From contig CP051242.1 in the NCBI GenBank assembly GCA_017795005.1, positions 3,650,119 to 3,714,118 on the forward strand: a stretch of DNA of 64,000 nt, given 5' to 3'. This stretch comes from Balneolaceae bacterium (lineage in GTDB: Bacteria; Bacteroidota; Rhodothermia; Balneolales; Balneolaceae). Under the pieces are notes generated by a model. The model was not told where the DNA came from. It saw nothing but the letters and a program-made list of their open reading frames with translations, and ran no database searches. A program made the position numbers and the translations under genes. Within the stretch, counting starts at the first letter, position 1, and every line of letters starts with the position of its first letter. Of the stretch, positions 15,585 to 57,824 are shown one piece after another.

Positions 15585-17255
15585 CTAAAAACTTATCCCA
15601 ATCGAATATTTCAAAAGTAGATCAGGTACCGCTAGAACGGTAAATCCGACATCTAGTTTATCAAAAATAGTATACTGCCTACCCATTGAAAAAGACTGTG
15701 GTATAATACCATCAAGATTAGATCTCAATCCATCGTTATTTACAGTTACTATTCCTTCCCCTAATACTATACTGCCCCCTATTCTGTAGTGCGAGTTTTT
15801 GTAACCCGTAAGCCCACTTAGAGCTTGAAATAAGAGACCATCAATATCCAAAAAAAGAAGTCTGACCGGTAATACCCTGCCAAACTGAACGGCATTATCA
15901 TATTTCTCTCTCATGTCAAAATCGAAGCCTATTCCAAATCCATTGCTCAGATTTTTACCTATCGTATGCCCTCCATTCGTGAATGAAAGCTCTCCAAAGT
16001 ATCTGGAATAGTTAATAACCATTGTATGCCGCCTCAATGCAAAGTCAAGGCCAACAGTAAGTGATGAGGGCAGACTCAGTTTACTGTCTTCAACAAGAGA
16101 AGAAATATTCCTTTCTGTGGTAAGATTGGGCTTATTTGTTTGTAAGCTATCCAGGGCTACATCAATATTACCTTGTAAAACATCGTCTCCCGAACCTACC
16201 AGAAAAACCGGAAGAAAAGCACTTGCTGTACTATTTTCACTTTTCAGATTGAAATTAGGAACCTGATCATATACTAAAGAAAGCCGCAATTCTTTATCTA
16301 ACTCATAATAAGCCCCCACTTTTATTCCGTACTCTGTTGCCTTAAAGGTTCCATCAGCATTCATAAAAAATGCATTCGACTCTCCCGCATCATAATTTAG
16401 GTTTGGATCATCCGGGTTATTGAAATAACGTTCGTCAGCACCCCCAACAACCACCATCCCGGAAAGATCTGCCTGGACACGTCTAATGTTGTCTACCTGA
16501 TATCTGGTGAAAGTTCCACCAAGTCCAAGTTTTTTGAATCTTTTATCGATTAGCTTTGTGCCCATCCCAACCGAAAGTGTGTTCATTTTAAAACTCATTT
16601 GGGTGAGAAGAGAGATATTCATTAACACATCAAAACGAATAGCAACTTCGTCTGTTCCTTGTTCCTGAGCCAGCTTTGCAGTCAGTCCGGTAATACCCAT
16701 ATCAAAATTAACAGATGCCGGGTAAGAGTAAGCTCCTGCTATCACCGTTTTGTTATTTATTGGAGCTGCAAATGCTGCAGAGGATACATCACTTCGAAAA
16801 CCTATATCAAAATCACGGACTTGAGTTGCCTGTATATAGGTCTCTGGAAACTGGGTCCAGTTTTCTTCATTTGAAAACTCATCATCTACTGCACTTTCAA
16901 TTTCGTTATTAATGGTACTTCTTAAGCTTGAATTTATTCCTGGAGTCATTGCAGTTCCAATACCAACCCGACTATCAAAAAGAACCTGGCCGTTTGTCAT
17001 AAAACCAAGCATTGCGGGATTTAAATGGATATTCAGAGCGCCGTTGTTTACTCTAGAGCTAATAAGCCCACCCATACTTCCGGAACCCAAACTGCTACCT
17101 ACAGTATTCAGATTTAATCCGAAATTTACATCCATATATCCGCCCCGAAATAAATGTAACTCACTAGGATTTGTATCCTCTTCCTGTGCCAGTATACTTG
17201 TAGAGCTAATAGCAATTGTTAATGTGATCAGTATGTAGAAGGCTATTTTCTTCAT
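15585..17255 (-). CDS. outer-membrane beta-barrel protein, third gene of the giant-protein operon
   Basis: A 556-residue exported protein with a signal peptide (MKKIAFYILITLTIAISSTS, cleavage after ILAQ). The mature chain is a succession of amphipathic strands. Near the N-terminus it contains NIHLNPAMLGFMTNG, the NPA-type turn seen in FadL/PorV/DUF5723-like barrels, and the last strand ends LLLKYSIGISF with a terminal Phe, typical for barrel assembly. I do not recognise a named family. It begins 8 bp after the stop of the PorV-like gene, the second gene of an operon that starts with the 2382-residue surface protein. This suggests a joint role in secreting or anchoring that protein, which is inferred from context alone. 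Confidence 0.8.
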   Translation of the reverse strand: MKKIAFYILITLTIAISSTSILAQEEDTNPSELHLFRGGYMDVNFGLNLNTVGSSLGSGSMGGLISSRVNNGALNIHLNPAMLGFMTNGQVLFDSRVGIGTAMTPGINSSLRSTINNEIESAVDDEFSNEENWTQFPETYIQATQVRDFDIGFRSDVSSAAFAAPINNKTVIAGAYSYPASVNFDMGITGLTAKLAQEQGTDEVAIRFDVLMNISLLTQMSFKMNTLSVGMGTKLIDKRFKKLGLGGTFTRYQVDNIRRVQADLSGMVVVGGADERYFNNPDDPNLNYDAGESNAFFMNADGTFKATEYGIKVGAYYELDKELRLSLVYDQVPNFNLKSENSTASAFLPVFLVGSGDDVLQGNIDVALDSLQTNKPNLTTERNISSLVEDSKLSLPSSLTVGLDFALRRHTMVINYSRYFGELSFTNGGHTIGKNLSNGFGIGFDFDMREKYDNAVQFGRVLPVRLLFLDIDGLLFQALSGLTGYKNSHYRIGGSIVLGEGIVTVNNDGLRSNLDGIIPQSFSMGRQYTIFDKLDVGFTVLAVPDLLLKYSIGISF

Positions 17256-17263
17256 TTCATCTC

Positions 17264-18247
17264 CTAAAAACTGATTGAAAAACTTAGTCGTTGAGAATCC
17301 TGTATCGGATCAATGACGTAGGCAAAATCCGATTGAAGCCGAATCTTTCCTCCTAGGTTTATATCAAGACCTGTCCCTAAGGTTATTTTATCATCATCAA
17401 GTGCATTTACCCCTTGTTCGGTTCCTGCTCTTAACATGAGGATTTTTACGAATCTTGCTTCCATTCCTACCCGAACCCAGTTCGTTCTTTCATCAGACAT
17501 AGCTGGTTGATAGTCAGCTGCGAGCAAAACATTCTTGCTTACTTTAAAGGAAGATCCAAATATTACTTCCATCGGCATACCCTCTTCATATTTCCCTCTC
17601 GAAGTATACTCCGTACTTCTTGTTTGGCTATTCCAATCTATAGGTGCCCAGGCATCCCTTATCATAACTCCGAATTGAACTTCTTTTGTAGGATGAAACA
17701 TCAGCCCTAAGTCAAGGCCATATCCATTTGCATCACCATGCACCTGTTGACCTAAGCCGGCTGTTATTTCATCGTCATCAAATACTATATAGTTATCTGG
17801 ATTGAGAGTATTGTTACCAAAACTTGCATTCCTGTATTTTACGCCAACTCCAAAGCTGAATAAGTATGTTCTGAAACCATACCCAGCATGAACCGAGAGT
17901 TCCTGCATTGCTTCATCACCAGAAGAAATAAGGGTAAATCCTATGGAATGACCTTCGATTGGAATCGGAATCAACACAGTTCCGTAATTATATGTGATAA
18001 GTCCTAGCTGATCGATTTGTGAAAAACCAGCCTTAAACTCAGAAGTTTGACTTAAACCTGCAGGATTCCAATAGGTGCTATTCTCGTCATCTGCAAGACC
18101 AACAAATGCGAATCCCATTGCAACGGGTCTGGTTCCGAAACCAACATCAACAAATGAACCGGGAATATTTGATAACTCCTGCCCTTTTATAGAAAAGGGT
18201 AGTGTCATCAGTAGTATAACCACGAAAAGTATATTAGGTGTTTTCAT
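17264..18247 (-). CDS. PorV/PorQ-like outer-membrane protein
   Basis: A 327-residue exported protein with a signal peptide (MKTPNILFVVILLMTLPFSI, cleavage after KGQ). It has the hallmark opening of PorV/PorQ (UPF0164) barrels: FVDVGFGTRPVAMGFAFVGL, then ENSTYWNPAGLSQT, a FadL-like N-terminal hatch. Later strands include GLDLGLMFHP and VRVGMEARF, and it ends RLSFSISF with a terminal Phe. PorV carries type IX cargo from the translocon to the attachment complex, and PorQ belongs to the same family. This copy is sandwiched between a giant putative type IX cargo gene (6 bp upstream) and another barrel gene (8 bp downstream), so it may be a cargo-specific carrier. The family call is good; the cargo role is inference. 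Confidence 0.82.
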   Translation of the reverse strand: MKTPNILFVVILLMTLPFSIKGQELSNIPGSFVDVGFGTRPVAMGFAFVGLADDENSTYWNPAGLSQTSEFKAGFSQIDQLGLITYNYGTVLIPIPIEGHSIGFTLISSGDEAMQELSVHAGYGFRTYLFSFGVGVKYRNASFGNNTLNPDNYIVFDDDEITAGLGQQVHGDANGYGLDLGLMFHPTKEVQFGVMIRDAWAPIDWNSQTRSTEYTSRGKYEEGMPMEVIFGSSFKVSKNVLLAADYQPAMSDERTNWVRVGMEARFVKILMLRAGTEQGVNALDDDKITLGTGLDINLGGKIRLQSDFAYVIDPIQDSQRLSFSISF

Positions 18248-18253
18248 AGTTCA

Positions 18254-21200
18254 TTATTTAATTAATACCACTTGCAGAAGTTTGGCAACTTCGCCCTGTT
18301 GATCTTTCGCTTTAATCTGGATCACATAACGACCGTTTCTTGCCATTGTACCGCTATCTGTTAATCCATCCCAGATAATTTCTTTTGTACTTGATGTGGA
18401 TCCATATCTACCAGGTTGCTGGAGGTCATCTTCCAGTATAGTTCGAACCAGTTCACCTCTGATATTGTATATATGGATATTCACTTTTGCTGGAGGAAAG
18501 GCCGTATCCAGCCAGTATCCGATTTTGACCGGGGCCACATCCGGCGAAAAAGGACTAGGTAGAACTGCAGCGTATTGGATACCAATGGGTTCGTTTTCTG
18601 CCAGAACAGCGAATTGTCCTAATTGTTCTATTTGAACTGTACCTGCTGTATTTGTGCTTTTCTGCTTTAAGCTATTTTGCAGAACTTCCCATTGCAACGT
18701 TGTAAAGTTAAACCTTGCTATTTCTCTGGTACCTGTACTAAGTTCAAGAGTAGAGTCGACTGGTAGTGTAAGTTGAGCTGGTTTTTTTAGGTCGCTACCA
18801 GAAAATGATAAAATAAAAATCTGATCACCGACGGTATAACTTGTGTTCGTTCCCTGGGCAAATACAAACTTTTTAGTAGCTGGAGGTGACGTTTGTCCTA
18901 GAGAAAGTTGGGATGGAATATCTACAGACCCTTCTTCAACTGTAAGTTCCAGCCCATTAGCATCTGATAATACGTAAGCTTCATCCGGTTCAATCCTCGC
19001 AGTTAATTCAACCACTTCAGAAATCCCTGAAATTCCCGAAAGCTCATCTGTTAGCTGAACCTGAAAAGAGCCTATCATTGAATTACTAGAGGCTTCAAAA
19101 ACGCCCCGAACATCAATATCCCCTGCTGATTGAGGTATTACTTCCCATATTAAAGACTCTCCCAGAATGATAGATCCACCTGATGTATCAATTGCAGAAT
19201 AACTAAATAACGATGACGCACTGTTGGAAACCTGTTTTCCTGGAATTCCTACATTTATTTCTTCCAAAGGAATATCTACTACTTCTAACTCTACCGTTCT
19301 ATCAATTACTGAACCATCAAGATTTGCAGATACTTTTATCTGATAGGTTCCTTCTTCAGCCGCTTCCAAAGTAATGGAGGTTTCCTCCTGACCTGAAAGA
19401 ATAATCCCATTTGTATTACCAAGAACAGACCATGTAACTGTTCCTGTAGGATTTTCCCCTTCAAATCTTTCTTCGAGTGATTTATTAATTCCATCACGGA
19501 CAAATAAATCTAGTTTGTAGGTTTCTCCCGCCCTTAATTTTTGCCCATTAATTGTAGGAGTAACCCTAATATTTGTTAGGATTCCACTAGCTAATGGAAC
19601 TATAGAAGTCTCCTCACTTAAGTACGTATTGGAGCGATTTAAATCCTGAATAGAAGTATAAAAAGTCACCTCTTCGATAGTGCCGATTGAAGGGATATAT
19701 GCACGTAAAGTATCTCCAACTTTCGTCATATTTACCCTGTTGAACTGACCCTCTGAATCTCGCTTATAAAATAAAAATCCTGTTGTAAACAGATTACTGT
19801 AGCCTTCCCTATTTACAACATCCACTTTAGTGTCTTCATCAGCTAATATTTGCTCAACCTCTAATTGAGTATATGGCAAGAATACTGATCTGTTTAAAGT
19901 TGTAGTATCAGATTCTAATTCGATTCGAATCGTATTTTGCGGGTATAAATAACCTTCTTTTGCAACACTAACTAAATAGGATGCTTTTCTTAGGTTTTCT
20001 GAAGAGATGAAAGCACCATCATTTCCAGTGATTTCGCTTGAGGATTCTCCTCCGGAAATCCCAAAAGTAACCTGTGCACCTGGTATTGGATCAACCCCAT
20101 CTGTTACCGTTAATTCAATCTGACCACTAGGTAATATAGTGTTCGGAACATTAACTCTTGTCCCAATTAAATCGGGTGTTATTGTAACCAGATAACTTTT
20201 ACTAAAAACGCCTTGACTTACTTTGACCTGATAAATTGTAGTATCGTTGGCTCCGGATTTAATGGGCAAACTTGCAAACCGAAATCTACCATTGCTATTA
20301 GTAACAGTATTTAATGTACTTGTAGAAATAGCACTTACCTCAACTCCTTCCACACCTTCATCTTTAAAGGTAACCAATCCACGTAAGTCTACAGATGCCT
20401 TGGAAAGTAAAATATCTTCAGCGTCAAAATTCTGACCTGCTGTAATCTCAACATCTAATGTGTCATTAATGAAGCCGGTTTTAGATGCAACAATAGAATA
20501 TGTGCCGGGAGCTAATGCGTTAACAGTATACCTTCCCGAGCTATTAGTTGTAGTTTCGAATGATTGACCCGTAGCATTAAATATAACAGCGATATTTGCA
20601 GCATTTACATTGCTGGTAGTTTCACCTGTAACAGAGGTAACTAACCCTGTTAAGTTTGAATTATTTGCTGTTAATATAAATTCAGTTGAAACGGAATCTC
20701 CGGAACTGAGAGACACATCTTTTGACTCTGGGCTTGCAGTAAATCCATCTTTTACCGGCCTGACTACATAAAAAGTAGTTGCCTGAATTTGACTGAACCT
20801 GGCAATACCCGATTGTCCTGTTTTTTTATTCAAGATGATGCTGGTATCTACAGAGATAATAGTTACATCTACATTTGATACCCCTACCCCATTTTCATCA
20901 TTAACTTTAACATCTAATGTTGCAATATTCGCAATGGAGTTAAAATTCACTGTTGATGAAGTCTCTATTCCTAAAGAAACTATTGAAGAAACTCCAGGAG
21001 TAAAAGTATACCCTGTACGTTGTGGCTCTATTTTGTAATCCCCTTCTCCAAGAAACTCAAACCTATAGCTCCCATCTTCTTCAGAGGATCCTAGTTCAAG
21101 AATTTCATTTGTGTTTGCATTCAGTAGCTTAATTGTTACATCCGAAATCTCAACGTTACCAGATAGAGATGACTTCCGCACTCCAACTCTGAGTTCTTCT

Positions 21201-24200
21201 TCTAATCTTACTTCTGAAGCTCCTGATTGAACCCGAAGTGTTGTTTCACCATTTTCATACCCATCCCTGTAAATATCGGTCATGATTTCATACGTAATTC
21301 CGGTTTCGATATTTTCGAATATGAACTCACCAGAATCATTGGTCTGAGTAGACAATGATTGATTTGAAGAAACTGCCAATACTACAGACCTGAATGGTAA
21401 TGTATCTCCATTAGGATCTGTAACTGTTCCAAGTATTCTTCCACTATTTGGTACAAGGTCAACATTAACCGTACCTGAAGTGCTTCCTGGGTTTATAGTA
21501 ACTTGAGAAGTATCAGATCTAAACCCTTCTTTACTACTAATAATCTGATATGTACCTGTTGACAGATTTGAAACTGAAAATGCTCCCGAGGCATTAGTTA
21601 CGCTAAAACCTGATCCCCGATCTCCGGATATAGAAACCTCAACGTCTTTTATAGAGTTATTTGTAGTACCATTTTTTATGGTTCCATTTATTGTAACATT
21701 ATTAGCTATCAGGTTATCAACTATAATATCTGTTCTGTTAAGATTTAACTCTGTGATAGTTGTAGCTGTTCCCCCATCTGAAGTATAACCTGTCTTGGAA
21801 GCTGAAACTGTATAATTACCTAATTCCAGGGAATTCAAAGAATAATTACCAACCCCTGTAGTTACCGCTGTATATTCGTTACCATTTTCATTTCTTGCCG
21901 TTACCGTAGCCTCAGATAATACTACTCCATCCTGGTCTCTTATGGTTCCCGAAATAGAACCATTTTTAGGAATCAATGTCTGATTAACAGTAACAAAATC
22001 ACCGTCAATTACAGTTCTCGAAAGGTTTTTATCAATAAATCCTGATCTGGTAATTTGGATAGAGTATGTTCCACCTATTAAGCCTGTGACGGTAAATCCA
22101 CCATCCTGATCACTTACAGCACTGGCGCCACCACCTCCTTGTCGTGTAATATTAATAAAAGCTTGTTCTACCCCACTTCCTTCTGAATTAGAAACTGTTC
22201 CGCTAAAAAACACAAAGTTTTCATTTGTCGTGAAATTCAGGCCGCTTACGTTTTGACCTATACTTAAGGATGTTAATTTGCGAACCGTTGTATACCCAGC
22301 CTTTGTCATTTCTAAAGTGTAACTATCCGGACTTAACCCAAGTAAATATGTTCCATCCGATTTTGAGACTGTACTGTCTACACGATCTCCGTTCGAAGTT
22401 ATAGCTACTACCTTTGCATTTGCTAAAACTGACTGGCCTGTAACAAAAATGGTACCGGAAACAGAACTTGGATTTGCAGCAAGTTGGTAATTCCTTGATA
22501 CTGTTTGCTCGGGAATAAGTTGGTTGGTTACTTCCGATTTAGTTTTAAAACCGTCTTTAGAAATTGTAATTCTGTAAGTTTTTCCGGCAGGTAGACTAAA
22601 TGCGTAATTCCCATTTAATTGTGTAAACGTACTTTGATTAAAAGATTCTCCGGAGCCTTGGCTAACTGTTACTGTAGCATTTCTTAATGGGTTTATCCCG
22701 TCTGTCACAGTTCCTTTTACTGTAGTTAGGTTTTTAACTAGAGCGAAGTTTTGATTTACCAGCTTTTGACCTGCGCCAATTGTCAGGGTATTAGTTGAGT
22801 CTGATATAAAGCCAGACTTCATTGCTTTTATATACCAGCTACCGGATTGGATATTAAAAGCATATTCCCCATTTAAATTACTGGTTAAAACTACTATTTT
22901 AGAACTTCCTGCATTTACTGCTATTAATGATGTATTTGATAGTGGTTCTCCACCAGATGTTACCTTACCTGAAATTGTACCTGCATTAGGTGTCATTTGA
23001 AAGTTGATACCAGTTAGATTCTGGCCAGCGTTTACGTTTACAGATCTCGGACTTGGAGAAACTAGGCCTGTTTTGGAAACTGTAATTGTATGAGTTCCTG
23101 TAGGTACACTTATCTTGTAGAAACCACTACTATTAGTTGTTGTTGTTCCAACTCCTGGTATGGTTACTATTGCAGCGGAAACTCCATTCCCATTTGGTAA
23201 TGTTACTGTTCCGGATAACGAACTTGGATTCGGGATTAATTCAAAATCCATTCCTGAAATAGTCTCCCCGATAGCAATTCCTATAACTAACTCTCTTTCC
23301 TGATTAGAAGTATAATTTGTCTTCGTTGCCTGAATAGTATATGAGCCACTTTTCTGACTCAATATGTACTGCCCATTTCTACCGGTAACGGTAGTAATTG
23401 CAGCACCTACATTAGGTACTGCGCGAACCTCAATGCCCTCAAAAGGAGCTGTGCCAACTGAACCATCTTCATTGGTAATTCTTTCTCTAACAAAACCTGT
23501 TACCTGATTAGCATTACCAGTTAAACTAAAGTTTTGGTTTTGAAGTACATCACCTGTTGAGAGTGATATTTCCTTATTAGAAGGTCTGATAAAACCCACT
23601 TTCTGAACTGAAAGGGTCCAGTTTCCACTTGCTACAGTAAATTGAAAAAATCCTGAACCATTAGTTTTGGTCTCATAAGATCTATTTCCATTGCTAATAG
23701 TAACATTTGCTCTTTGAACAGATTGTCCGTTTTCATTGAATACAGTTCCTGATACCGTAGCCTGATCGTTTGTTAGTACAAATGCATTAGATAATTCCTT
23801 TTGTTCATTTACCCCTACTGTTACGCCTCTCGTAGACGGACTTATATATCCAGACTTTGAAGCACTAATAGTATATGAGCCACTATTTAAAAAGCTTGAA
23901 AATTCACCATTGATATTTGACCTTTCTGTTTTGCTTTCCTCATCACCTATTTTAGTAAATACAATCAAAGCATTTTCTACAGGCTCATCATTTTCATCAA
24001 GTACTTTTCCTTTTACTGAAGATGGTAATGGATTTAATTTAAGAGTAAAATTTGTTCTACTGTTATTTCTAACGGTGGCTTCGATAGTCCCATCTTCGTA
24101 CCCTTTTTTTACCGCCTTAAATTCATAAACACCGGCAACCAAACTATCTGCAAGTGATTCATTTATCACAAAAAAAGGAGTAGATGGTGTAACCCCACCT

Positions 24201-25402
24201 GAGATTGCTCTTGCTGTAAGTTCAACACCCACTAAACCAGAATTATCAGAACTATTTTGAATTCGGGCATTAAATTCACCTGTTTCAATTCTGTAAGCAA
24301 AAAATCTACTGTTACTAGTTGTTCCTCCCCCACTGGAGTTATTCGTTACCACATTCCATTGATAGGTTCCATTTTTTAGATTCTCAATTGCAGGATATTC
24401 TATACTTGTATTCGTCGAAGTACTAGACCAAATGGGAACAGTAACATCAATCCCCTGTTGTTTTACTATCTCCAATAGATTTATGGTATAGTTTGATGCT
24501 TCTGCTACCCTAGACCAACTAAATGTGATTGACTCTTCTGAAAAGAAAACTTCATTAGGGATTGGAAATGATAAATTTGTTTTTGGAACTGCATTTGGAT
24601 CACTAAAAGTAAAAGGAACAATACCTCCAAAAACCGGGCTTGTGTAAACGGCATTCGACTCGTCGTATACATTGAGAACTGTATAACTATACTCCTGACC
24701 TGAATTTAATGGTGATGCTTCGTCCTGATATGTAGACTCATTATTTATAGCTCCATATTCAGCTGTAATTTCTTTTGTTATGTACTGCCAAACTATTGTT
24801 GCTCCTTCAATACTTATATTTCCGGATTCATCTTCAATAATATCAAAGGGAGTACTGGACACAATTACCAAATAGGCCGGAACACCTGAGACAGAAGACC
24901 ATTGAAAGGTTGGTGTTGGATTAGTAATAGAACCTCTTGGTGCAATAATTGATGGGGCTTCACTAGCTTCAATTATCAGTACTATTTCATTGGAATATTC
25001 AATATTTCCCGGGTTATTTTGCTGATCTGACTGTATATCTGAAGTAGATCTAAATATTGAATTTGTTATCCTCGCATAATACCGACCAGCGCCAAGGTTG
25101 ATGTTATCTGGCATTAAATCGCTACTTGTTCCTGAGACATCTACTTCAAGTACATTGTAGCTATTTGAAGTACGACCGATAACCAGTTTAGCACCTGTCC
25201 CAGATAAATTTAGATTTGAGCCATTTAATTGACTCCAGGTTAATCTAAATTCCTTGTTTTTCTTAAGTAACAATTTGGCTTCATATCCACCATTATCATT
25301 TTCCACTTTGGCAGGCTGAAGTAAAAAAGTTTGTGCATTCCCAGAGAGAGCAATAAATAATGCACAAATAATAAAAAGTATAATTCTTTTTAAAGCACCC
25401 AT
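18254..25402 (-). CDS. giant secreted protein with about 17 carboxypeptidase-regulatory-like repeats and a FlgD-like C-terminal domain
   Basis: A 2382-residue exported protein. A signal peptide (MGALKRIILFIICALFIALS, cleavage after GNAQ) is followed by about 355 residues with fibronectin/Ig-like sections (PTFQWSSVSGVPAYLVIVSS; ITFSWSRVAEASNYTINLLE). Then come about 17 tandem modules of roughly 85 residues (380-1845), each with the pattern xxSGTVxxxxGxxVxxAxVxI, TxxxGxYxxxxxxGxYxIxxSKxGY and a linker NPSS or NAGT. These are carboxypeptidase-regulatory (CnaB-like) beta sandwiches. A region of bacterial Ig-like sections (about 1845-2290) precedes a C-terminal FlgD-like domain: PSPFSPD, IYNIRGELVRTI, WDGLTDSGTMARNGRYVI and a final VVLIK. 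That ending resembles type IX cargo. It is probably a long stalk or adhesin. First gene of an operon with two barrel genes. Confidence 0.88.
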   Translation of the reverse strand: MGALKRIILFIICALFIALSGNAQTFLLQPAKVENDNGGYEAKLLLKKNKEFRLTWSQLNGSNLNLSGTGAKLVIGRTSNSYNVLEVDVSGTSSDLMPDNINLGAGRYYARITNSIFRSTSDIQSDQQNNPGNIEYSNEIVLIIEASEAPSIIAPRGSITNPTPTFQWSSVSGVPAYLVIVSSTPFDIIEDESGNISIEGATIVWQYITKEITAEYGAINNESTYQDEASPLNSGQEYSYTVLNVYDESNAVYTSPVFGGIVPFTFSDPNAVPKTNLSFPIPNEVFFSEESITFSWSRVAEASNYTINLLEIVKQQGIDVTVPIWSSTSTNTSIEYPAIENLKNGTYQWNVVTNNSSGGGTTSNSRFFAYRIETGEFNARIQNSSDNSGLVGVELTARAISGGVTPSTPFFVINESLADSLVAGVYEFKAVKKGYEDGTIEATVRNNSRTNFTLKLNPLPSSVKGKVLDENDEPVENALIVFTKIGDEESKTERSNINGEFSSFLNSGSYTISASKSGYISPSTRGVTVGVNEQKELSNAFVLTNDQATVSGTVFNENGQSVQRANVTISNGNRSYETKTNGSGFFQFTVASGNWTLSVQKVGFIRPSNKEISLSTGDVLQNQNFSLTGNANQVTGFVRERITNEDGSVGTAPFEGIEVRAVPNVGAAITTVTGRNGQYILSQKSGSYTIQATKTNYTSNQERELVIGIAIGETISGMDFELIPNPSSLSGTVTLPNGNGVSAAIVTIPGVGTTTTNSSGFYKISVPTGTHTITVSKTGLVSPSPRSVNVNAGQNLTGINFQMTPNAGTISGKVTSGGEPLSNTSLIAVNAGSSKIVVLTSNLNGEYAFNIQSGSWYIKAMKSGFISDSTNTLTIGAGQKLVNQNFALVKNLTTVKGTVTDGINPLRNATVTVSQGSGESFNQSTFTQLNGNYAFSLPAGKTYRITISKDGFKTKSEVTNQLIPEQTVSRNYQLAANPSSVSGTIFVTGQSVLANAKVVAITSNGDRVDSTVSKSDGTYLLGLSPDSYTLEMTKAGYTTVRKLTSLSIGQNVSGLNFTTNENFVFFSGTVSNSEGSGVEQAFINITRQGGGGASAVSDQDGGFTVTGLIGGTYSIQITRSGFIDKNLSRTVIDGDFVTVNQTLIPKNGSISGTIRDQDGVVLSEATVTARNENGNEYTAVTTGVGNYSLNSLELGNYTVSASKTGYTSDGGTATTITELNLNRTDIIVDNLIANNVTINGTIKNGTTNNSIKDVEVSISGDRGSGFSVTNASGAFSVSNLSTGTYQIISSKEGFRSDTSQVTINPGSTSGTVNVDLVPNSGRILGTVTDPNGDTLPFRSVVLAVSSNQSLSTQTNDSGEFIFENIETGITYEIMTDIYRDGYENGETTLRVQSGASEVRLEEELRVGVRKSSLSGNVEISDVTIKLLNANTNEILELGSSEEDGSYRFEFLGEGDYKIEPQRTGYTFTPGVSSIVSLGIETSSTVNFNSIANIATLDVKVNDENGVGVSNVDVTIISVDTSIILNKKTGQSGIARFSQIQATTFYVVRPVKDGFTASPESKDVSLSSGDSVSTEFILTANNSNLTGLVTSVTGETTSNVNAANIAVIFNATGQSFETTTNSSGRYTVNALAPGTYSIVASKTGFINDTLDVEITAGQNFDAEDILLSKASVDLRGLVTFKDEGVEGVEVSAISTSTLNTVTNSNGRFRFASLPIKSGANDTTIYQVKVSQGVFSKSYLVTITPDLIGTRVNVPNTILPSGQIELTVTDGVDPIPGAQVTFGISGGESSSEITGNDGAFISSENLRKASYLVSVAKEGYLYPQNTIRIELESDTTTLNRSVFLPYTQLEVEQILADEDTKVDVVNREGYSNLFTTGFLFYKRDSEGQFNRVNMTKVGDTLRAYIPSIGTIEEVTFYTSIQDLNRSNTYLSEETSIVPLASGILTNIRVTPTINGQKLRAGETYKLDLFVRDGINKSLEERFEGENPTGTVTWSVLGNTNGIILSGQEETSITLEAAEEGTYQIKVSANLDGSVIDRTVELEVVDIPLEEINVGIPGKQVSNSASSLFSYSAIDTSGGSIILGESLIWEVIPQSAGDIDVRGVFEASSNSMIGSFQVQLTDELSGISGISEVVELTARIEPDEAYVLSDANGLELTVEEGSVDIPSQLSLGQTSPPATKKFVFAQGTNTSYTVGDQIFILSFSGSDLKKPAQLTLPVDSTLELSTGTREIARFNFTTLQWEVLQNSLKQKSTNTAGTVQIEQLGQFAVLAENEPIGIQYAAVLPSPFSPDVAPVKIGYWLDTAFPPAKVNIHIYNIRGELVRTILEDDLQQPGRYGSTSSTKEIIWDGLTDSGTMARNGRYVIQIKAKDQQGEVAKLLQVVLIK
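19875..24275 (-). repeat. coding tandem repeat region: about 17 carboxypeptidase-regulatory-like modules
   Basis: Within the giant surface protein, about 17 consecutive units of 255 bases encode modules starting with forms of SVKGKV, TVSGTV, SLSGTV, TISGKV, SVSGTI, SISGTI, VTINGTI, RILGTV and SLSGNV. Most contain a central GxY/GxF turn and K-x-GY/GF. The units are clearly related in protein but diverged in DNA, so this is an old repeat expansion. Boundaries are approximate. Confidence 0.8.
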
Positions 25403-25669: not shown

Positions 25670-26077
25670 TTGAAATTAATTATCTACATATCGTTTTTAA
25701 TCTTCTGCTTATCAGAAACAACCATTTTTGCTCAAGGTAGCGTAAATGCAACAATGAGAGTTTCTGCAACAATTGTGAGCGGAGTTACTCTTAATAATGT
25801 TGAGTCAATCAATGTGAATTTAGAAGAAGAAAATCAGGCAACCAGTAGTTTTGATTTTGTTACTCCTAAGTACCTTGATTCTCTTGTTGATATTGAAAAC
25901 TTGATAGTTCTTAGAAATGAATTCGGGGGTGAGATTAAAATTAACTCTCAAAGCCAACATACTATCGATGAAGGTACACATCGGGTTGATCTCAATACTG
26001 AAGTAGCTTCTGTTGAAAAGGACAAGTTTAAAGGACATTATCAAGGAAACTTAGTAACAACTATCAATTATCTTTAA
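25670..26077 (+). CDS. small secreted protein, possibly DUF4402-like
   Basis: A 135-residue exported protein starting at TTG. The signal peptide (TTG-encoded Met, KLIIYISFLIFCLSETTIFA, cleavage after FAQ) precedes a short beta-rich mature domain. This begins SVNATMRVSATIVSGVTLNN and ends GHYQGNLVTTINYL. The start (variants of ATIVSGVTLNN) and the end (GxYxGxLxxTINY) recall DUF4402 and fimbrial-type small beta domains, but the match is by eye. An upstream ATG is absent, and TATATTTG sits 20 bases before the TTG, which supports this start. It is divergent from the giant surface protein operon and followed by a clear terminator, so it is a single-gene unit. The function is unknown; a pilin-like or surface role is possible. 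Confidence 0.65.
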   Translation: MKLIIYISFLIFCLSETTIFAQGSVNATMRVSATIVSGVTLNNVESINVNLEEENQATSSFDFVTPKYLDSLVDIENLIVLRNEFGGEIKINSQSQHTIDEGTHRVDLNTEVASVEKDKFKGHYQGNLVTTINYL

Positions 26078-51123: not shown

Positions 51124-51283
51124 TGACAAGAAGGCCACTAAACAAGCTCACCAACCAAGAAGGTGTGTTTACTGTGGTCAGCATGCTGAACTTGTTTTGG
51201 TTCATGGGCATGGTCAATGTGCAGCCTGCGGGATAAATACAGACGAATGCTGTCGTGGTGAGAATTGTGCAGTGGATCAATAG
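51101..51283 (+). CDS. small zinc-ribbon protein
   Basis: A 60-residue protein with a paired CxxC: RRCVYCGQHAEL and GQCAACGIN, followed by ECCRGENC, which adds three more Cys. This is the pattern of a small zinc-ribbon protein seen in Bacteroidota relatives, with no known function. The start MMNSAQADD overlaps the end of the hydrolase gene by 23 bases; the second Met is equally possible. It is convergent with the TamB-like gene, with the two stops overlapping. The dense Cys pattern makes it a real gene. Confidence 0.78.
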   Translation: MMNSAQADDKKATKQAHQPRRCVYCGQHAELVLVHGHGQCAACGINTDECCRGENCAVDQ

Positions 51284-54200
51284 TCGTATTGATATCTAAA
51301 ATCAATTCCGCGCCGGTTGTCATCTCCCTGAGTCATTATTAAATCCCATCGCTCCGAAAGTATATACTCGAGCATAAAAAGCGTTTTGGGAGTCGATCCT
51401 GATATCTCATTAATAATTGCAAAGAATGTACGTTCATTCAGATACCAGCCTGTTTTGATTGAAGTACCTCCTGAAGCGCCGGAGTTATCGATTTGAACTA
51501 CATCCACACCTAATTCTCTGGTTGCAAGGGCTTCAACTTCATCAAGAAGAACGTCTGTTAATAAATCTGCTGCTGACGGCCCTCCTCCACTTGCAAAAAC
51601 ACTTTGCCACGACTCTAAGGAATAACATGGTTTACTAAAAAGGGTGTAACAAACGATATCAGATTGCTCCATCTGGGGATCACTATCAAAACTAAACTCC
51701 GGATTTTGTGCCGTGCCCTGAATCAAATAATATAACTCAACAGGTTCTCCTTTCTGTCGAGTTGGAGGAGTATATCTACTTTTAATATTAAGATCAGGAT
51801 CTTCAATAGGTCCACTAAATGTAAAACCGGCTTCCTCCATAACAAAGAGTTTCCCTAAAGGACGTACATAACCACCAACCCCATTTAATGCTCCAAATAA
51901 TGCCAGCTCTCCTTTTGTTTCTTTCTGTGCATCTAACTCACCTGTTAGTTCAATTTCCATGTCCAGATAGGTTCTGTTCCTAACATAAAAATCACGTTGA
52001 ATTACAATACTCATATCCATTGCAAGAGAATCATATGGACTAAAGCTTGATACTTCTTCTCCTTCTAGCTGAACTTCTTCGATGCTATCCTCTCCAAAAT
52101 CCTGTAAATAAATAAACCCATTCCTAACAGTAATTTTACCCGTCGAAGTAGGAGTAGTAGCTCTTCCACTTAACCTGCTGTCCAGATCTATTACGATATT
52201 ATAGTCTTCTGTATTTGCCAGCCTGAATCGTTCTGCCCTTGCATTTAAATCCAACGTTTGTGGAATTATCCCTTCCATATCCACAGTACCATTTGCGTTA
52301 AAACTTCCTCTTCCACTACGTGCGACCAGTTCTTTTACTCTAAGACCTGATTGGGTAAATTCAACATCAGATCGAATTCCCTGCAATGTTATTCCCGCAA
52401 TCGGAACCGATACTTTTCCTCCGGTTAACCTCATATACCCCTTAGGAATCAAACTTTCGCTTGTTCCTTCTAACCTCACATCTGCATTTAATGATCCGGT
52501 TAACCCTCGCATATATTCCTTGTTCAGGAAGTCATTAAATACTGCCAGATTAAAGTTTTCAGTTATGATATTTACTCTGATGTTCTCCTCCTCATCCGGC
52601 AAAATCACTTGAAATGTCCTGAAATCATATTCTAATGGATAATTAATTTCTATCTGAGCTGCTTTCTGTTTAGCTGCAATGATTTCACTTCTAACCTCGA
52701 GTCCTGTTCTTAAATTATCATAGTTAAAACCAGCTTTAACCGTATCTAACCTTACTCCGGAAAGTACCGGCTGATTAAGTAAAAAATCTCCTTCGAAGTT
52801 TGGTTCGCCCGCAGTCCCTGACATAGTACCGTTAAAGCTCAAAATACCATCCGTATTTTCAATTCCGAATTCGTTCAATAATGCTTTAAAGCGCGTTAGT
52901 TCTGAGGGATTAACAACTAAACTTCCTTCTACAGGTTGATCATAAAATTCATCACCTAATTCGGACTGATCTTTAAGAACAAATGGTACGTCCAGATTTC
53001 CTTTCACCCGTTCCTGATCATCCCAGCTTAAAAGCCCAACAAGTTTTAGACGTTGTTCTACTATATCAAAACGTAAATCAAGAGAGTCAGCTTCTATGTC
53101 TCTATACTTCAATCGTATAAGATTAAAAACTCCATTACCGGTGACCTGTTCTTCGGACTGATTAAAGACTAACTCTCCTGAAAGCACACCATCGATAAAT
53201 CTTTCCCCGAAAATCACTTCCTGTAAAATTCCGAAGTCGAAATTCTTACCATCTATCCAACCATACTGTTCAACACTATCGGCGTATGGAATCGAAAATT
53301 TTAAAAACGCCCCGGTACTGGATGATAAGTCTAATGTATCTGTGCCTATGGTTTGCCCTTTAATTCTAACATTAAATGGCTTAGCCATTGTTAACTCCGA
53401 TTCATTTGTAATAAAATCAAATTGATCAAAGCGGATATCGATTAATTCTTCTGAGAAATCCATAGCAATTAAACCCTCTTGAATTAACCTTCCCCTTTCA
53501 CTACCTATCACTTCAAGGGTAAATTGACTTCTTAAGGAATCATCATTCGCCTCTCCATTTGACACCAACTGTATATCCTGCAATGATACTCCCGAAATAA
53601 CAGGTGATTCTATCTCTAGATTTGTGATAAACCCTCTCATTTCCTGCATAGTCACATCCATACTACCATTAATTCTGGATGCGGTAAATAATGTATCGAC
53701 AATTACATCGTAAAAATTAACGTTCATATTTCCTTGAAGTACTCCCGCAGTATCCTGGGTAATTCTCCCTGTTATATCCCCGGTAGCATTTAGAATTTCC
53801 ACATCAGCTAGTGGAGCTAAGGGTTGTATATCCTTCACTTTCATGTCAATTGAAAGCCAGTTTTCGGGATCTTTTTCGTCAGTAATATTCTTTCTTCCAC
53901 TAAACTGACCCTCAACAATGTCGCTATTCAATAGGCCCTCACCTATGTTGAGCACTCCATTAACCAAATTTAAAGACGCATCCAGCTTTTGAAACCTTGC
54001 CCCGTTAATAACGCTGGAATCAATATTAACAGAAGTATTTAGGCGTGCGCTTTCGGGAGTAATTCCACTTCCTTTCCCTTCAAGTACCATATTCAGATGA
54101 GTAGGGAAATCAGATAATTGATTGATTTCGGATAAATTAAAACCGCTGGTTGTCAGGTAATATTCGTAAAGGGGTTTTTCTTCCAAAAAATCGAGCGCGT

Positions 54201-55803
54201 CTACTTCAAAATCGATTCTGCTCTGATCTATAGTTACATGCCCTTCAGCTGTAACTTTATTTTCGCTGATGGTCCCCTTCAACCGGTATTGTTCAATTTT
54301 TTGATCATTGATGTAATTATTTGAAACCGATGAGAGCCTTTGGTCAAAGGGTAAATTTCTTAGTTCATCCTGACTATTCGAATTCAAAACTAAATCATGT
54401 CTACTGGTTATTGAATAAATCCAAGGCTGATCAGAAAGCTCGAAGCCTTTTCCCTCAATTCCTATTCCAAAATTCAGATTTGTTTTGATATCGGTAAGCT
54501 CGGTCCAGTATGATAAATCGAGGTTTGTAAATCGTGCCTTCAAGTTCCAACTGGCTGTATCCGAAGATATGTTATAAATCATTGGATACGCATTCATCTG
54601 CTCTTCAAATTGTGGGTGAATTGCAAAATGTCCAACTAAGTCATCGTCTTTCAGTGTTCCGCTTCCAATCACCCTATTTAAATAGTAGTTTTGGTACCTT
54701 AGCTCCATTACCGTGAAGCCCCAAATGATATCTGCTTTATCAATTTCTGATGAAATATTTCCATTTACAGTAAAGCGATATTCACCAAGTTCTGAGTCCA
54801 GCGAATCATCGGTGAAAGCTGCAATATTCAAACCTTCCCCAAAAATACCGAGCTGATATAATGTTGGTTCATCCACGAAACCAAATCCTGCCAATAACTC
54901 TAAATTAGGAGCATATTCATGATCCATTAATAACCTGAAGTTTAAACTATCCAATGTTCCTGAAACCGAAAGATTAAGTTCAAAATCTTCTTCGGGTAGT
55001 TTAGCATCCAGATAAGGTTGAATATCGGCAAGAGAGAGCGGCGAGGTTAACGCTTCAGCAGAAAAGCTGGAATCTGAAGTAGCCGCTGATGCAGATGCCT
55101 TTAACATAGACCTGCCCGATTCAATCACTAATTCCTGCAAAGTGATTATATCATCTAAAACATTTGCTGATGTTTCAATTTTAATAGGATCAGGCAATCT
55201 TCCTTCTTCTAACAAGAAACTCAATGATGATAGATTAAATTGCAGAGTATCCGTTTTACTGAAGGTGGCTACTGCATCAAGGCTCTGGATAAGTACTGAA
55301 GAATCAGGCAAGTAAGATGGAGAATACACTCTGGTGTTAATATTCCTCAAATTTATTTCCGAGAGAACAATATTAAGCGCCTCAGATTCTTCGTTTTGCT
55401 CTTTTACTAATTCCTGAACATTAAAAACGGTATCCTGCCGTTCTTCAATGTTGGAGTGAACACCAACTAGTTTTAGCTCATTAATAACATAGACGCTTTT
55501 CAAGAAGCTCCAAATATTATAATTAGCATAAAGTGTATCCGCGGTAAAAATGGTATCTGCTTGAATTACTGCAATATCAGTCAATTCTATTTCTTTCCAT
55601 AAATCACCATCCAGATTATTAATTGAAAGCGTTCCATTTAGCTGCTCATTTGCTATCGATACTATTTTACTTTTCACAAAACGATGCACCAAATCAGTTG
55701 TAAGTAAATACCTGCCTAACAACTGTACTCCAACAAAAATGGATAATACAATCAGAGAAATCCTGAGAGCTTTTAAATTTCTATGTTGCTTCTGATCTGT
55801 CAT
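51277..55803 (-). CDS. tamB: TamB-like translocation and assembly module protein
   Basis: A 1508-residue inner-membrane-anchored periplasmic protein. The N-terminal anchor is KALRISLIVLSIFVGVQLLG. The long middle is a series of beta strands as in the TamB/AsmA-like groove proteins that conduct lipids or outer-membrane proteins between membranes. The C-terminal DUF490 domain shows GYVRPLGKLFVMEEAGFTFSGPIEDPDLNI, YLIQGTAQNPEFSFDSDP, QSDIVCYTLFSKP, and the end KTLFMLEYILSERWDLIMTQGDD. The start at 55803 overlaps the TAA of the upstream TamA-like gene by one base (TAATG). The ATG at 55839 would overlap that gene by 37 bases and is unlikely. Operon with tamA, as in many Gram-negatives. Confidence 0.9.
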   Translation of the reverse strand: MTDQKQHRNLKALRISLIVLSIFVGVQLLGRYLLTTDLVHRFVKSKIVSIANEQLNGTLSINNLDGDLWKEIELTDIAVIQADTIFTADTLYANYNIWSFLKSVYVINELKLVGVHSNIEERQDTVFNVQELVKEQNEESEALNIVLSEINLRNINTRVYSPSYLPDSSVLIQSLDAVATFSKTDTLQFNLSSLSFLLEEGRLPDPIKIETSANVLDDIITLQELVIESGRSMLKASASAATSDSSFSAEALTSPLSLADIQPYLDAKLPEEDFELNLSVSGTLDSLNFRLLMDHEYAPNLELLAGFGFVDEPTLYQLGIFGEGLNIAAFTDDSLDSELGEYRFTVNGNISSEIDKADIIWGFTVMELRYQNYYLNRVIGSGTLKDDDLVGHFAIHPQFEEQMNAYPMIYNISSDTASWNLKARFTNLDLSYWTELTDIKTNLNFGIGIEGKGFELSDQPWIYSITSRHDLVLNSNSQDELRNLPFDQRLSSVSNNYINDQKIEQYRLKGTISENKVTAEGHVTIDQSRIDFEVDALDFLEEKPLYEYYLTTSGFNLSEINQLSDFPTHLNMVLEGKGSGITPESARLNTSVNIDSSVINGARFQKLDASLNLVNGVLNIGEGLLNSDIVEGQFSGRKNITDEKDPENWLSIDMKVKDIQPLAPLADVEILNATGDITGRITQDTAGVLQGNMNVNFYDVIVDTLFTASRINGSMDVTMQEMRGFITNLEIESPVISGVSLQDIQLVSNGEANDDSLRSQFTLEVIGSERGRLIQEGLIAMDFSEELIDIRFDQFDFITNESELTMAKPFNVRIKGQTIGTDTLDLSSSTGAFLKFSIPYADSVEQYGWIDGKNFDFGILQEVIFGERFIDGVLSGELVFNQSEEQVTGNGVFNLIRLKYRDIEADSLDLRFDIVEQRLKLVGLLSWDDQERVKGNLDVPFVLKDQSELGDEFYDQPVEGSLVVNPSELTRFKALLNEFGIENTDGILSFNGTMSGTAGEPNFEGDFLLNQPVLSGVRLDTVKAGFNYDNLRTGLEVRSEIIAAKQKAAQIEINYPLEYDFRTFQVILPDEEENIRVNIITENFNLAVFNDFLNKEYMRGLTGSLNADVRLEGTSESLIPKGYMRLTGGKVSVPIAGITLQGIRSDVEFTQSGLRVKELVARSGRGSFNANGTVDMEGIIPQTLDLNARAERFRLANTEDYNIVIDLDSRLSGRATTPTSTGKITVRNGFIYLQDFGEDSIEEVQLEGEEVSSFSPYDSLAMDMSIVIQRDFYVRNRTYLDMEIELTGELDAQKETKGELALFGALNGVGGYVRPLGKLFVMEEAGFTFSGPIEDPDLNIKSRYTPPTRQKGEPVELYYLIQGTAQNPEFSFDSDPQMEQSDIVCYTLFSKPCYSLESWQSVFASGGGPSAADLLTDVLLDEVEALATRELGVDVVQIDNSGASGGTSIKTGWYLNERTFFAIINEISGSTPKTLFMLEYILSERWDLIMTQGDDNRRGIDFRYQYDY

Positions 55804-57824
55804 TAGAAAGCCTGGCCGATTGTGAAATGAATATCCCATCGGGCAAACCGCCCTCCTCTGTCAATTCCGCCTGGAAATTGCTGCAAATCCTGTGAATTCG
55901 GATTTATTTTATACCCGATATCAATCCGGACTGGGCCAATTGGAGATTCATATCGAAGACCTCCACCAACTCCAAATTGAAGATTTTCAAAATTTATATC
56001 TCTAGTTCTTCTCCAAACCTGTCCCCCGTCTAAAAAAGCAGCCATTCCAAAGCCCTTTATCAAACCATTAAGACTCTTCCGGAATTCAACATTAAAGTTG
56101 AATAAAGCCCGTCCACCTACGGGTACATATCGTAAAGTTGTATCTGAAACCTCAACCCCGTCCACAGTTTCATTTGTCACTGTTTCAACAACACGTTTAG
56201 GGCCTAAAAACTGAGTTGGCCAACCCCTTACTGAGTTTGTTCCTCCCACATAATACTTCACATCCGAAGGTAGTGAATCTTGCCGGGCTGAATAAATTGC
56301 CCCTCCTCTTACACGGGTAGCAAGAACTAGACTTCTATTTATTTCGGAATATTTTCTTATATCTAATGATGCCTTATTAAAACTGAACGTTGACTCTCCG
56401 AACAACCCTGAGAATTCTAAAAATGGCTGAATAATAATCCCTCTTCTACCTCTCCGAAGATTTTTTGTGTAGTAGAGATTTAGCGCAAAAGAAGAAACGT
56501 TGTATGAGAGAAGACTATCTGGTAATACTTGCTCCACACTTTGCTGCTCTGATGTACTCCGCACATTCGATTCATCATTGATTGCAAATTCATAGGAAAA
56601 AGTTCCCGTCAGGTTTCTGCTGTATTCGTACCCAAAGGTGTTAATAATACCTGCAGTAAGAATTTCATAACTACGTTCATCGCGAAACTGATAAAAGGGA
56701 TTTATATTTATACTGCTTTTGGTATTGTATACATAAGGAAACAAATACTCAGCACTTAACTTTCTGTCATAAAAAGAATATTTAGCTGACGTACTGAATT
56801 GCTCACCTTTACCTCTCACATTTCTATAAACCCAGGTTGCCTGAGTTCTGAATGCCCTTAAAAAATTAGACTCTGTTATTTTCCCATCATCAGCAACAAT
56901 ACGATCAAAATCACCTGCTCCAAATTTAAGCTGAACAGAACGTAAAGGAAGTTCTTTAACTCTTAGAAGTACATTTACGCTTGTATCCTGAGGTTGGTCT
57001 GGAATAGAAACCAGAGCTAACCTAAACAGGTGATGTTTAAAAACTTCCCTTTGGGCATTTCTCATATCACTTTCATTAAAGTATTCCCCTGTTTTAAGCC
57101 CACTTTCCCTAACAATAAGTTCGTCAGATAGAGTAGTTTCTCCTTCCACAAAAATACTATCGAATTTAGCTCTTGGACCTGCCTCAGCAGTTATTAATAA
57201 ACTTGTTTTTTTTGCTGAAGAATCCGTCTCTGCTTCAACTTTTGTATTTGAATAAGGATACCCTAGTTGTTTTAAAGATTGTTCAAACCTGGCAATAACT
57301 TCGGTTTCTTCAATCGGTTCATAAATTCTTCCTTCCCGATAGGGTGATCTTCTTAGTGTAGAATTAAAATCTCTGTTCTCACTAATAAAGACGCTATCTT
57401 TAGATGAAGCGCTTAGATTAATTTCAATATTTTCGATTCTTATTGGCAGGTTTTCAGTTACAAAGAAGGTGACATGTTTTTTCCATTCCTTGCGCTTAGA
57501 TTCAACCTGATAGGTGACCTCAACATCGTTAAAACCTCTTCTTTGATAAAAACGCTCTATTCTTATAACATCTTTACGAATCTCTGTTTCCGACAACTTA
57601 TAGCCGCTTCTATTCCAAAAAGTTAGTTTTTTCCATACTGAGGGTTGTTCGGAAGCAATCCTTTTTTTAATCACGACGTCTTCAAATCGTTGATTACCCT
57701 CTATACTCACTTTCCAAATTCGGGCAGTTTCTTCCTCTGATTCCTGAGCAACCAGATTTTGAGAAATTATTACCCCACCTATAATGGTTAATAAAAAAAA
57801 TATGATATGTTTAGCAGGGTAGAT
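55803..57824 (-). CDS. BamA/TamA-family outer-membrane protein with a non-canonical start
   Basis: An Omp85-family barrel with N-terminal POTRA domains (RIWKVSIEGNQRFEDVVIKK; FYQRRGFNDVEVTYQ; RFEQSLKQLGYPYSNTKVE; IFVEGETTLSDELIVRESGLKTG). The C-terminal barrel carries the lid signature GGTNSVRGW and ends PVRIDIGYKINP, then WDIHFTIGQAF with a terminal Phe. It pairs with the TamB-like gene below. Upstream of the in-frame GTG at 57710 the frame stays open to a TAG at 57837-57839 and encodes a signal peptide (HIIFFLLTIIGGVIISQNL, then VAQ), yet it has no ATG, GTG or TTG. An AGAGGA site precedes ATC 57824, which I used as start. A sequencing error or mutation is an alternative. Confidence 0.88.
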   Translation of the reverse strand: MYPAKHIIFFLLTIIGGVIISQNLVAQESEEETARIWKVSIEGNQRFEDVVIKKRIASEQPSVWKKLTFWNRSGYKLSETEIRKDVIRIERFYQRRGFNDVEVTYQVESKRKEWKKHVTFFVTENLPIRIENIEINLSASSKDSVFISENRDFNSTLRRSPYREGRIYEPIEETEVIARFEQSLKQLGYPYSNTKVEAETDSSAKKTSLLITAEAGPRAKFDSIFVEGETTLSDELIVRESGLKTGEYFNESDMRNAQREVFKHHLFRLALVSIPDQPQDTSVNVLLRVKELPLRSVQLKFGAGDFDRIVADDGKITESNFLRAFRTQATWVYRNVRGKGEQFSTSAKYSFYDRKLSAEYLFPYVYNTKSSININPFYQFRDERSYEILTAGIINTFGYEYSRNLTGTFSYEFAINDESNVRSTSEQQSVEQVLPDSLLSYNVSSFALNLYYTKNLRRGRRGIIIQPFLEFSGLFGESTFSFNKASLDIRKYSEINRSLVLATRVRGGAIYSARQDSLPSDVKYYVGGTNSVRGWPTQFLGPKRVVETVTNETVDGVEVSDTTLRYVPVGGRALFNFNVEFRKSLNGLIKGFGMAAFLDGGQVWRRTRDINFENLQFGVGGGLRYESPIGPVRIDIGYKINPNSQDLQQFPGGIDRGGRFARWDIHFTIGQAF

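Follow-up and report, generated by a model that had tools for sequence, protein, structure and literature searches.

The window analysed here, a stretch of 64,000 nucleotides from the complete 3.75 Mb genome of a Balneolaceae bacterium, contains three open reading frames on the minus strand, separated by gaps of 6 and 8 bp and encoding proteins of 2382, 327 and 556 aa (18254-25402, 17264-18247 and 15585-17255, respectively), as a first-pass annotation of this DNA had described. The first gene of the operon encodes a giant secreted protein (orthologs 2352-2416 aa), which, like its orthologs, begins with a hydrophobic leader recognised by inspection as an N-terminal Sec signal peptide (residues 1-23; 25334-25402); cleavage is predicted before QTF, and the mature part of the orthologs starts with a conserved 'Q'. 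The leader is followed by a conserved N-terminal region (residues 24-455; 24038-25333), in which residues 24-375 have no family assignment and residues 150-375 rank second in conservation within the protein (mean identity to distant orthologs, 41%), by a stack of carboxypeptidase-regulatory-like modules (residues 456-1830; 19913-24037), and by Ig-like and pre-C-terminal domains (residues 1831-2280; 18563-19912), which are the least conserved region (28.5%). The C-terminal domain (residues 2281-2382; 18257-18562) extends from PSPFSP to the final VVLIK, matches FlgD_ig and is a long relative of the type IX sorting domains. The second gene (17264-18247) encodes a predicted outer-membrane barrel close to the PorV/PorQ family, proposed below as the cognate shuttle or anchor of the giant, and the third (15585-17255) a predicted barrel of the FadL superfamily. 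A scan for promoters and terminators found sites no commoner than in shuffled sequences. Divergent from the giant lies a gene for a small secreted protein (25670-26077, plus strand), with relatives of 36-38% identity at the same place in two other trio loci (L028 and L029) and a similar open reading frame in a third (L030); the more distant trio loci lack this gene. Elsewhere in the window, a TamB-like gene and an Omp85/TamA-BamA-like gene form a pair with overlapping reading frames in the same orientation (51277-57710, minus strand).

The repetitive part of the giant comprises 16 CarboxypepD_reg stretches (Pfam PF13620, E = 3e-149). Orthologs sharing 26-60% identity vary in length only between 2352 and 2416 residues, a spread that is itself an upper bound because the starts of the reading frames were set mechanically, and the repeat stack, 1374 residues long in this giant, measures 1345-1378 residues in the 11 orthologs examined. 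When the stack was cut into 16 slices, 14-16 of them matched the orthologous position best in giants with as little as about 34% identity; in the giants of one family (f9), at 25-31% identity, this was the case for 7-11 slices. The number of modules is held constant over the phylum, unlike in recombining repeat adhesins, and a repeat adhesin of variable copy number is ruled out by the constant length together with the module-by-module orthology. A fold search with the last 552 residues of the giant returned generic Ig chains and S-layer proteins; a match to PorU (6za2, Z 9.7) had an rmsd of 36.5 and is not taken as evidence of relationship.

The first-pass annotation had contrasted the FlgD-like end of the giant with the YPNPFNP-type sorting domains of other type IX cargos and had concluded that the giant lacks such a domain. 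This contrast does not hold in the source genome, in which 54 of the 57 FlgD_ig matches coincide with sorting domains recognised by TIGR04183. The giant has LPSPFSPD at the equivalent place (a PNPF motif occurs in 4 of 14 aligned orthologs), and its C-terminal domain aligns end to end, by profile, with ten type A domains from the window and the source genome (E = 2.5e-9), and more strongly still with the domains of PorU and of three further cargos encoded directly ahead of PorV-family genes (E = 9.8e-15). An ordinary FlgD-type fold unrelated to secretion is excluded by the FlgD_ig/TIGR04183 overlap and the end-to-end profile match, and the domain is a relative of the type IX sorting domains. 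It had no match to TIGR04183 in either the protein scan or the genome scan (threshold 23 bits) and none to the type B model (TIGR04131), and a sequence search of the PDB with the C-terminal profile found only FlgD (E = 0.19, not significant). From motif to end the giants count 101-104 residues, compared with 75-79 in the ten type A domains and 88-105 in the PorU-like group, and all giants read terminate in L[IV]K. In a published comparison, cleaved domains comprise 67-88 residues and the retained domains of PorZ and PorU 96 and 108, respectively, mostly owing to one extra hairpin, which on its own was insufficient to stop cleavage when grafted onto RgpB (PMC11285876). On these sequence comparisons, the domain of the giant is a divergent, long, non-type-A sorting domain, closer to the retained domains of the PorU/PorZ type. 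The domain is better conserved than any other part of the giant (58% identity to ten distant orthologs, compared with 28-41% elsewhere); this strong conservation could instead reflect binding to SprA rather than to a cognate barrel.

The 327-aa protein matches the PorV/PorQ family model NF033709 with 70.4 bits (E = 2e-19; curated cut-off 90), and one ortholog (L066) exceeds the cut-off with 95.6 bits. It stays far below the equivalog cut-offs for PorV (NF033710, 15.3 of 250 bits) and PorQ (NF033711, 22.8 of 220 bits), and scores 20.6 bits against the PorP/SprF family PF11751 (cut-off 22.3). Its N-terminal hatch (residues 24-66; 18050-18178), which carries the NPA motif of the FadL family, is 57% identical to distant orthologs compared with 34% elsewhere in the protein. 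A tree of the PorV family weakly supports a separation of the trio barrels from seven of the eight paralogs and places L012, a very long branch, among the trio barrels. A PDB sequence search with the profile of this barrel found only PorV (6h3i, E = 0.58, not significant).

For the 556-aa protein, which had been left as an unassigned second barrel, the predicted fold is FadL-like. Its match to Pfam FadL (PF03349) is weak (22.7 bits, below the gathering cut-off of 29.7), it matches no NCBIfam family, and a PDB sequence search with its profile found only CymD (E = 0.021, not significant). The predicted structure, of modest confidence (pLDDT 64.6), has its best Foldseek matches in FadL (3dwo, E = 2.9e-8), TodX and TbuX, and also matches BamG (9hiv) and PorV (8gl6); the NPA motif is invariant in ten orthologs. 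The model therefore indicates a FadL-type fold with an N-terminal hatch and NPA motif. Compared with FadL, TodX and TbuX, and with BamG, whose fold and NPA motif it shares, the protein is about 130 residues longer than FadL and has conserved long loops. Its best-conserved loop (residues 268-296, ...ERYFNNPDDPNLN...GESN; 16368-16454) is 53% identical between orthologs compared with 31% for the remainder, and this conservation suggests a fixed partner or ligand.

A search of 394 genomes across the phylum detected the C-terminal region of the giant in 15 (283-970 bits; best non-member 46.6), belonging to 14 genera and six families. The PorV-like protein and the FadL-type barrel were found in the same 15 genomes and in one more (G284), and each of the 15 has the gene order giant, PorV-like protein, FadL-type barrel, with the genes overlapping or within 31 bp of each other; in one (G347) the third gene is split between two contigs. 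None of the 394 genomes keeps one intact gene of the trio without the others. G284 retains fragments of both barrels and has lost the giant, so that the trio is there lost as a whole unit. The remnant (L070, 4174-5664), in which half the FadL-type barrel and part of the PorV-like protein survive, is a decaying copy. Overall, the arrangement is kept in 21 genomes of at least six families (17 complete, four cut by contig ends) and is far from chance. A family-level survey of 92 genomes found the PorV-like protein in 12 and the third barrel in ten of these, the other two loci being cut by contig ends. That the three genes form a linked unit is borne out within one phylum by this constant order, and a giant without a linked PorV-like gene, the case that would have spoken against a dedicated module, was sought in the 394 genomes and not found. 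The distribution is patchy, the trio being absent from two relatives of the same genus, and no further neighbour gene is common to the trio loci of different families; the trio loci of family f9 have a TonB-dependent receptor and a DUF4249 protein ahead of the trio (both identified by scanning a single f9 genome). Between genomes, the trio proteins co-vary in pairwise identity (r = 0.96-0.97), as is also expected of any co-inherited genes. A plasmid search with the third barrel gave no match, and literature searches returned no paper describing this trio.

The source genome depends heavily on type IX secretion (T9SS): it contains about 97 TIGR04183 sorting-domain matches, one of them in an open frame of 6596 residues (at 1580454), true PorV adjoins PorU, PorQ is also present, and SprA was found in 24 of 24 genomes tested. 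PorV-family matches occur at 12 places, one of which is PorV and another PorQ. Seven of these genes immediately follow, in the same orientation, six cargos with non-type-A domains: the giant, PorU, and four proteins of 1225, 545 (followed by two barrels), 1160 and 704 aa. Three of these sets (1225, 1160 and 704 aa) are headed by a TonB-dependent-receptor-like gene upstream, the receptor-like genes of 931 and 1047 aa being so classified by appearance only. In the protein scan the paired cargos had no TIGR04183 match or one below 23 bits; in the genome scan PorU reached 25.0 and the 545-aa protein, with its neighbours, 23.1 bits, so that the score line between type A and non-type-A domains is not absolute among paired cargos. 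Ten cargos without a following PorV-family gene scored 39.5-52.7 bits, and at the loci read no clear type A cargo was directly followed by a PorV-family gene. Same-strand sets of a TonB-dependent-receptor-like gene, a large cargo and a PorV-family barrel, in this constant order, lie at loci L009 (2903-10283), L013 (8633-15992) and L076 (7614-13913), the large cargos having a non-type-A sorting domain and otherwise only weak matches to the C-terminal domain of PorZ. At L011 (7966-11596) a 545-aa BNR-propeller protein with a PorZ-like C-terminal domain is followed by two PorV-family genes; this is a candidate PorZ-like set of the lineage.

PorU:PorV and PorZ:PorQ are known as complexes in the attachment complex of the T9SS (PMC5562754), in which PorV holds PorU and PorQ holds PorZ, both held proteins retaining their sorting domains (PMC5562754, PMC10202324). 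The trio resembles them in combining a secreted protein that has a long type IX domain (retained in PorU and PorZ) with a barrel close to the PorV/PorQ family, and the genes of PorU and PorV also adjoin in the source genome. It differs in that its cargo is a chain of modules of 2,400 residues with no match to an enzyme or propeller, its barrel falls into a separate group below the cut-offs of PorV and PorQ, and the trio always includes a second barrel, of the FadL type. For type B cargo, the cognate barrels belong to PorP/SprF and are frequently encoded alongside (PMC12618676), and SprB-SprF (PMC12618676, PMC9143113) shares with the trio a large surface protein (in the trio, a predicted one) with its own shuttle or anchor barrel immediately downstream and a domain that is probably uncleaved, whereas the giant lacks TIGR04131, the trio barrel is nearer to PorV/PorQ than to PorP/SprF, and a third gene is present. 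For type A cargo, PorV binds the sorting domains inside SprA and exits with them (PMC10994853); the giant has a homologous C-terminal domain with a P-x-P-F motif and a terminal lysine, but this domain is 22-29 residues longer, fails TIGR04183 and has a barrel of its own. A review of 2023 proposed that cognate PorV-like barrels shield the domain from cleavage, with PorZ/PorQ and the type B pairs as possible cases (PMC10202324). Among these systems, the trio is best placed as a variant of the cognate barrel-cargo pairs of the T9SS, and not PorV proper, type A or type B.

By analogy with these pairs, we consider it rather probable that the type IX system exports the giant, whose sorting domain then stays uncleaved and bound to its own PorV-family barrel. 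One-to-one linkage, together with the length and strong conservation of the domain, fits this proposal. All three proteins would be carried across the inner membrane by Sec; inside the SprA translocon, the linked PorV-family barrel, and not the general PorV, would recognise the C-terminal domain of the giant, and the giant would be pulled out together with this barrel. Against this reading, the general PorV, as the carrier of many type A domains, could in principle serve the giant too, and the PorV-like protein scores below the family cut-off. The sorting domain would not be removed but would stay on the barrel and anchor the giant on the outer surface, comparable to PorU/PorV and PorZ/PorQ. 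With about 25 Ig-like domains in near-fixed number, the giant would form a stalk or scaffold that extends outwards to a set length, estimated at about 90-100 nm from ~4 nm per domain, and the FadL-type barrel may be an obligatory partner in the same outer-membrane complex, either as a second anchor or as the channel through which a hydrophobic compound, captured by the giant, would pass. The idea of a dedicated type IX module, put forward in the first-pass annotation, was right in outline with respect to the linked unit and a dedicated T9SS partner, and wrong in regarding the sorting domain as missing. As to the carrier role suggested there for the PorV-like protein, the PorU:PorV and PorZ:PorQ precedents point to anchoring no less than to carrying.

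Should the PorV-like barrel act as a carrier only, it would shuttle the giant from SprA, PorU would cleave the domain, and the giant would be LPS-linked or released. PorU is present in the source genome, the domain of the giant is homologous to cleaved type A domains, and type A cargo is handled in this way (PMC10994853, PMC5562754). However, the domain resembles the uncleaved domains of PorU and PorZ in length and class, and a recycled shuttle needs no one-to-one coding, the known one-to-one pairs keeping their domain (PMC12618676, PMC10202324), which makes a carrier-only role unlikely. It is likewise doubtful that the trio is primarily an uptake complex, in which the FadL-type protein would be the working part, through which a hydrophobic nutrient enters, while the giant, as a surface scaffold, would capture or funnel this nutrient and the PorV-like barrel would do no more than hold the giant in place. 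The fold of the third barrel (3dwo, TodX, TbuX) with its invariant NPA motif and the TonB-dependent receptor and DUF4249 protein preceding the trio in f9 would agree with uptake, but in this phylum proteins other than transporters adopt FadL folds too (BamG 9hiv, PorV 8gl6), the two f9 genes are unlinked to the trio outside that family, and the confidence of the barrel model is modest (pLDDT 64.6).

A stalk-like adhesin, in which the modules provide reach only and the binding site lies in the N-terminal region of the giant, is possible, and we entertain it with reserve. It is in keeping with a chain of Ig-like modules, with residues 150-375 as the second best-conserved part and with type B cargo that have cognate PorP/SprF barrels and are known or predicted adhesins (PMC12618676), yet adhesin tips usually diversify and repeat numbers vary, whereas the N-terminus of the giant is conserved and its length constant; the constant length and one-to-one orthology of the modules are ill suited to the usual variable-copy adhesin. 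Adhesion would be compatible with retention on the cognate barrel, as its functional end-use. Finally, the three genes might be co-inherited by coincidence, their products having no physical interaction, since the support for the trio is genomic association and correlated divergence is expected for any linked genes; this is very improbable, because, with at least six families represented, no genome among the 394 keeps one intact gene without the other two, and any further neighbour is retained within single families at most.

The trio looks like a dedicated kit for exporting one giant protein of fixed length and for holding it on the cell surface, and the constant length of the giant calls for a structural reason. 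The trio offers a clean natural test, across the phylum, of how T9SS cargo avoids cleavage and stays on the surface, with one cargo and one PorV-family barrel that never occur apart. We tentatively suggest that there might be a further T9SS class beside A, B and C, comprising long retained domains of the PorU/PorZ type with their own PorV-family barrels, of which the trio would be the most elaborate member, uniting a giant scaffold of set length, a PorV-family anchor and a FadL-type channel in one outer-membrane machine. Because six non-type-A cargos of the source genome directly precede PorV-family genes and, at the loci read, no clear type A cargo does, pairing with a PorV-family barrel may be a general rule for one whole class of sorting domain.
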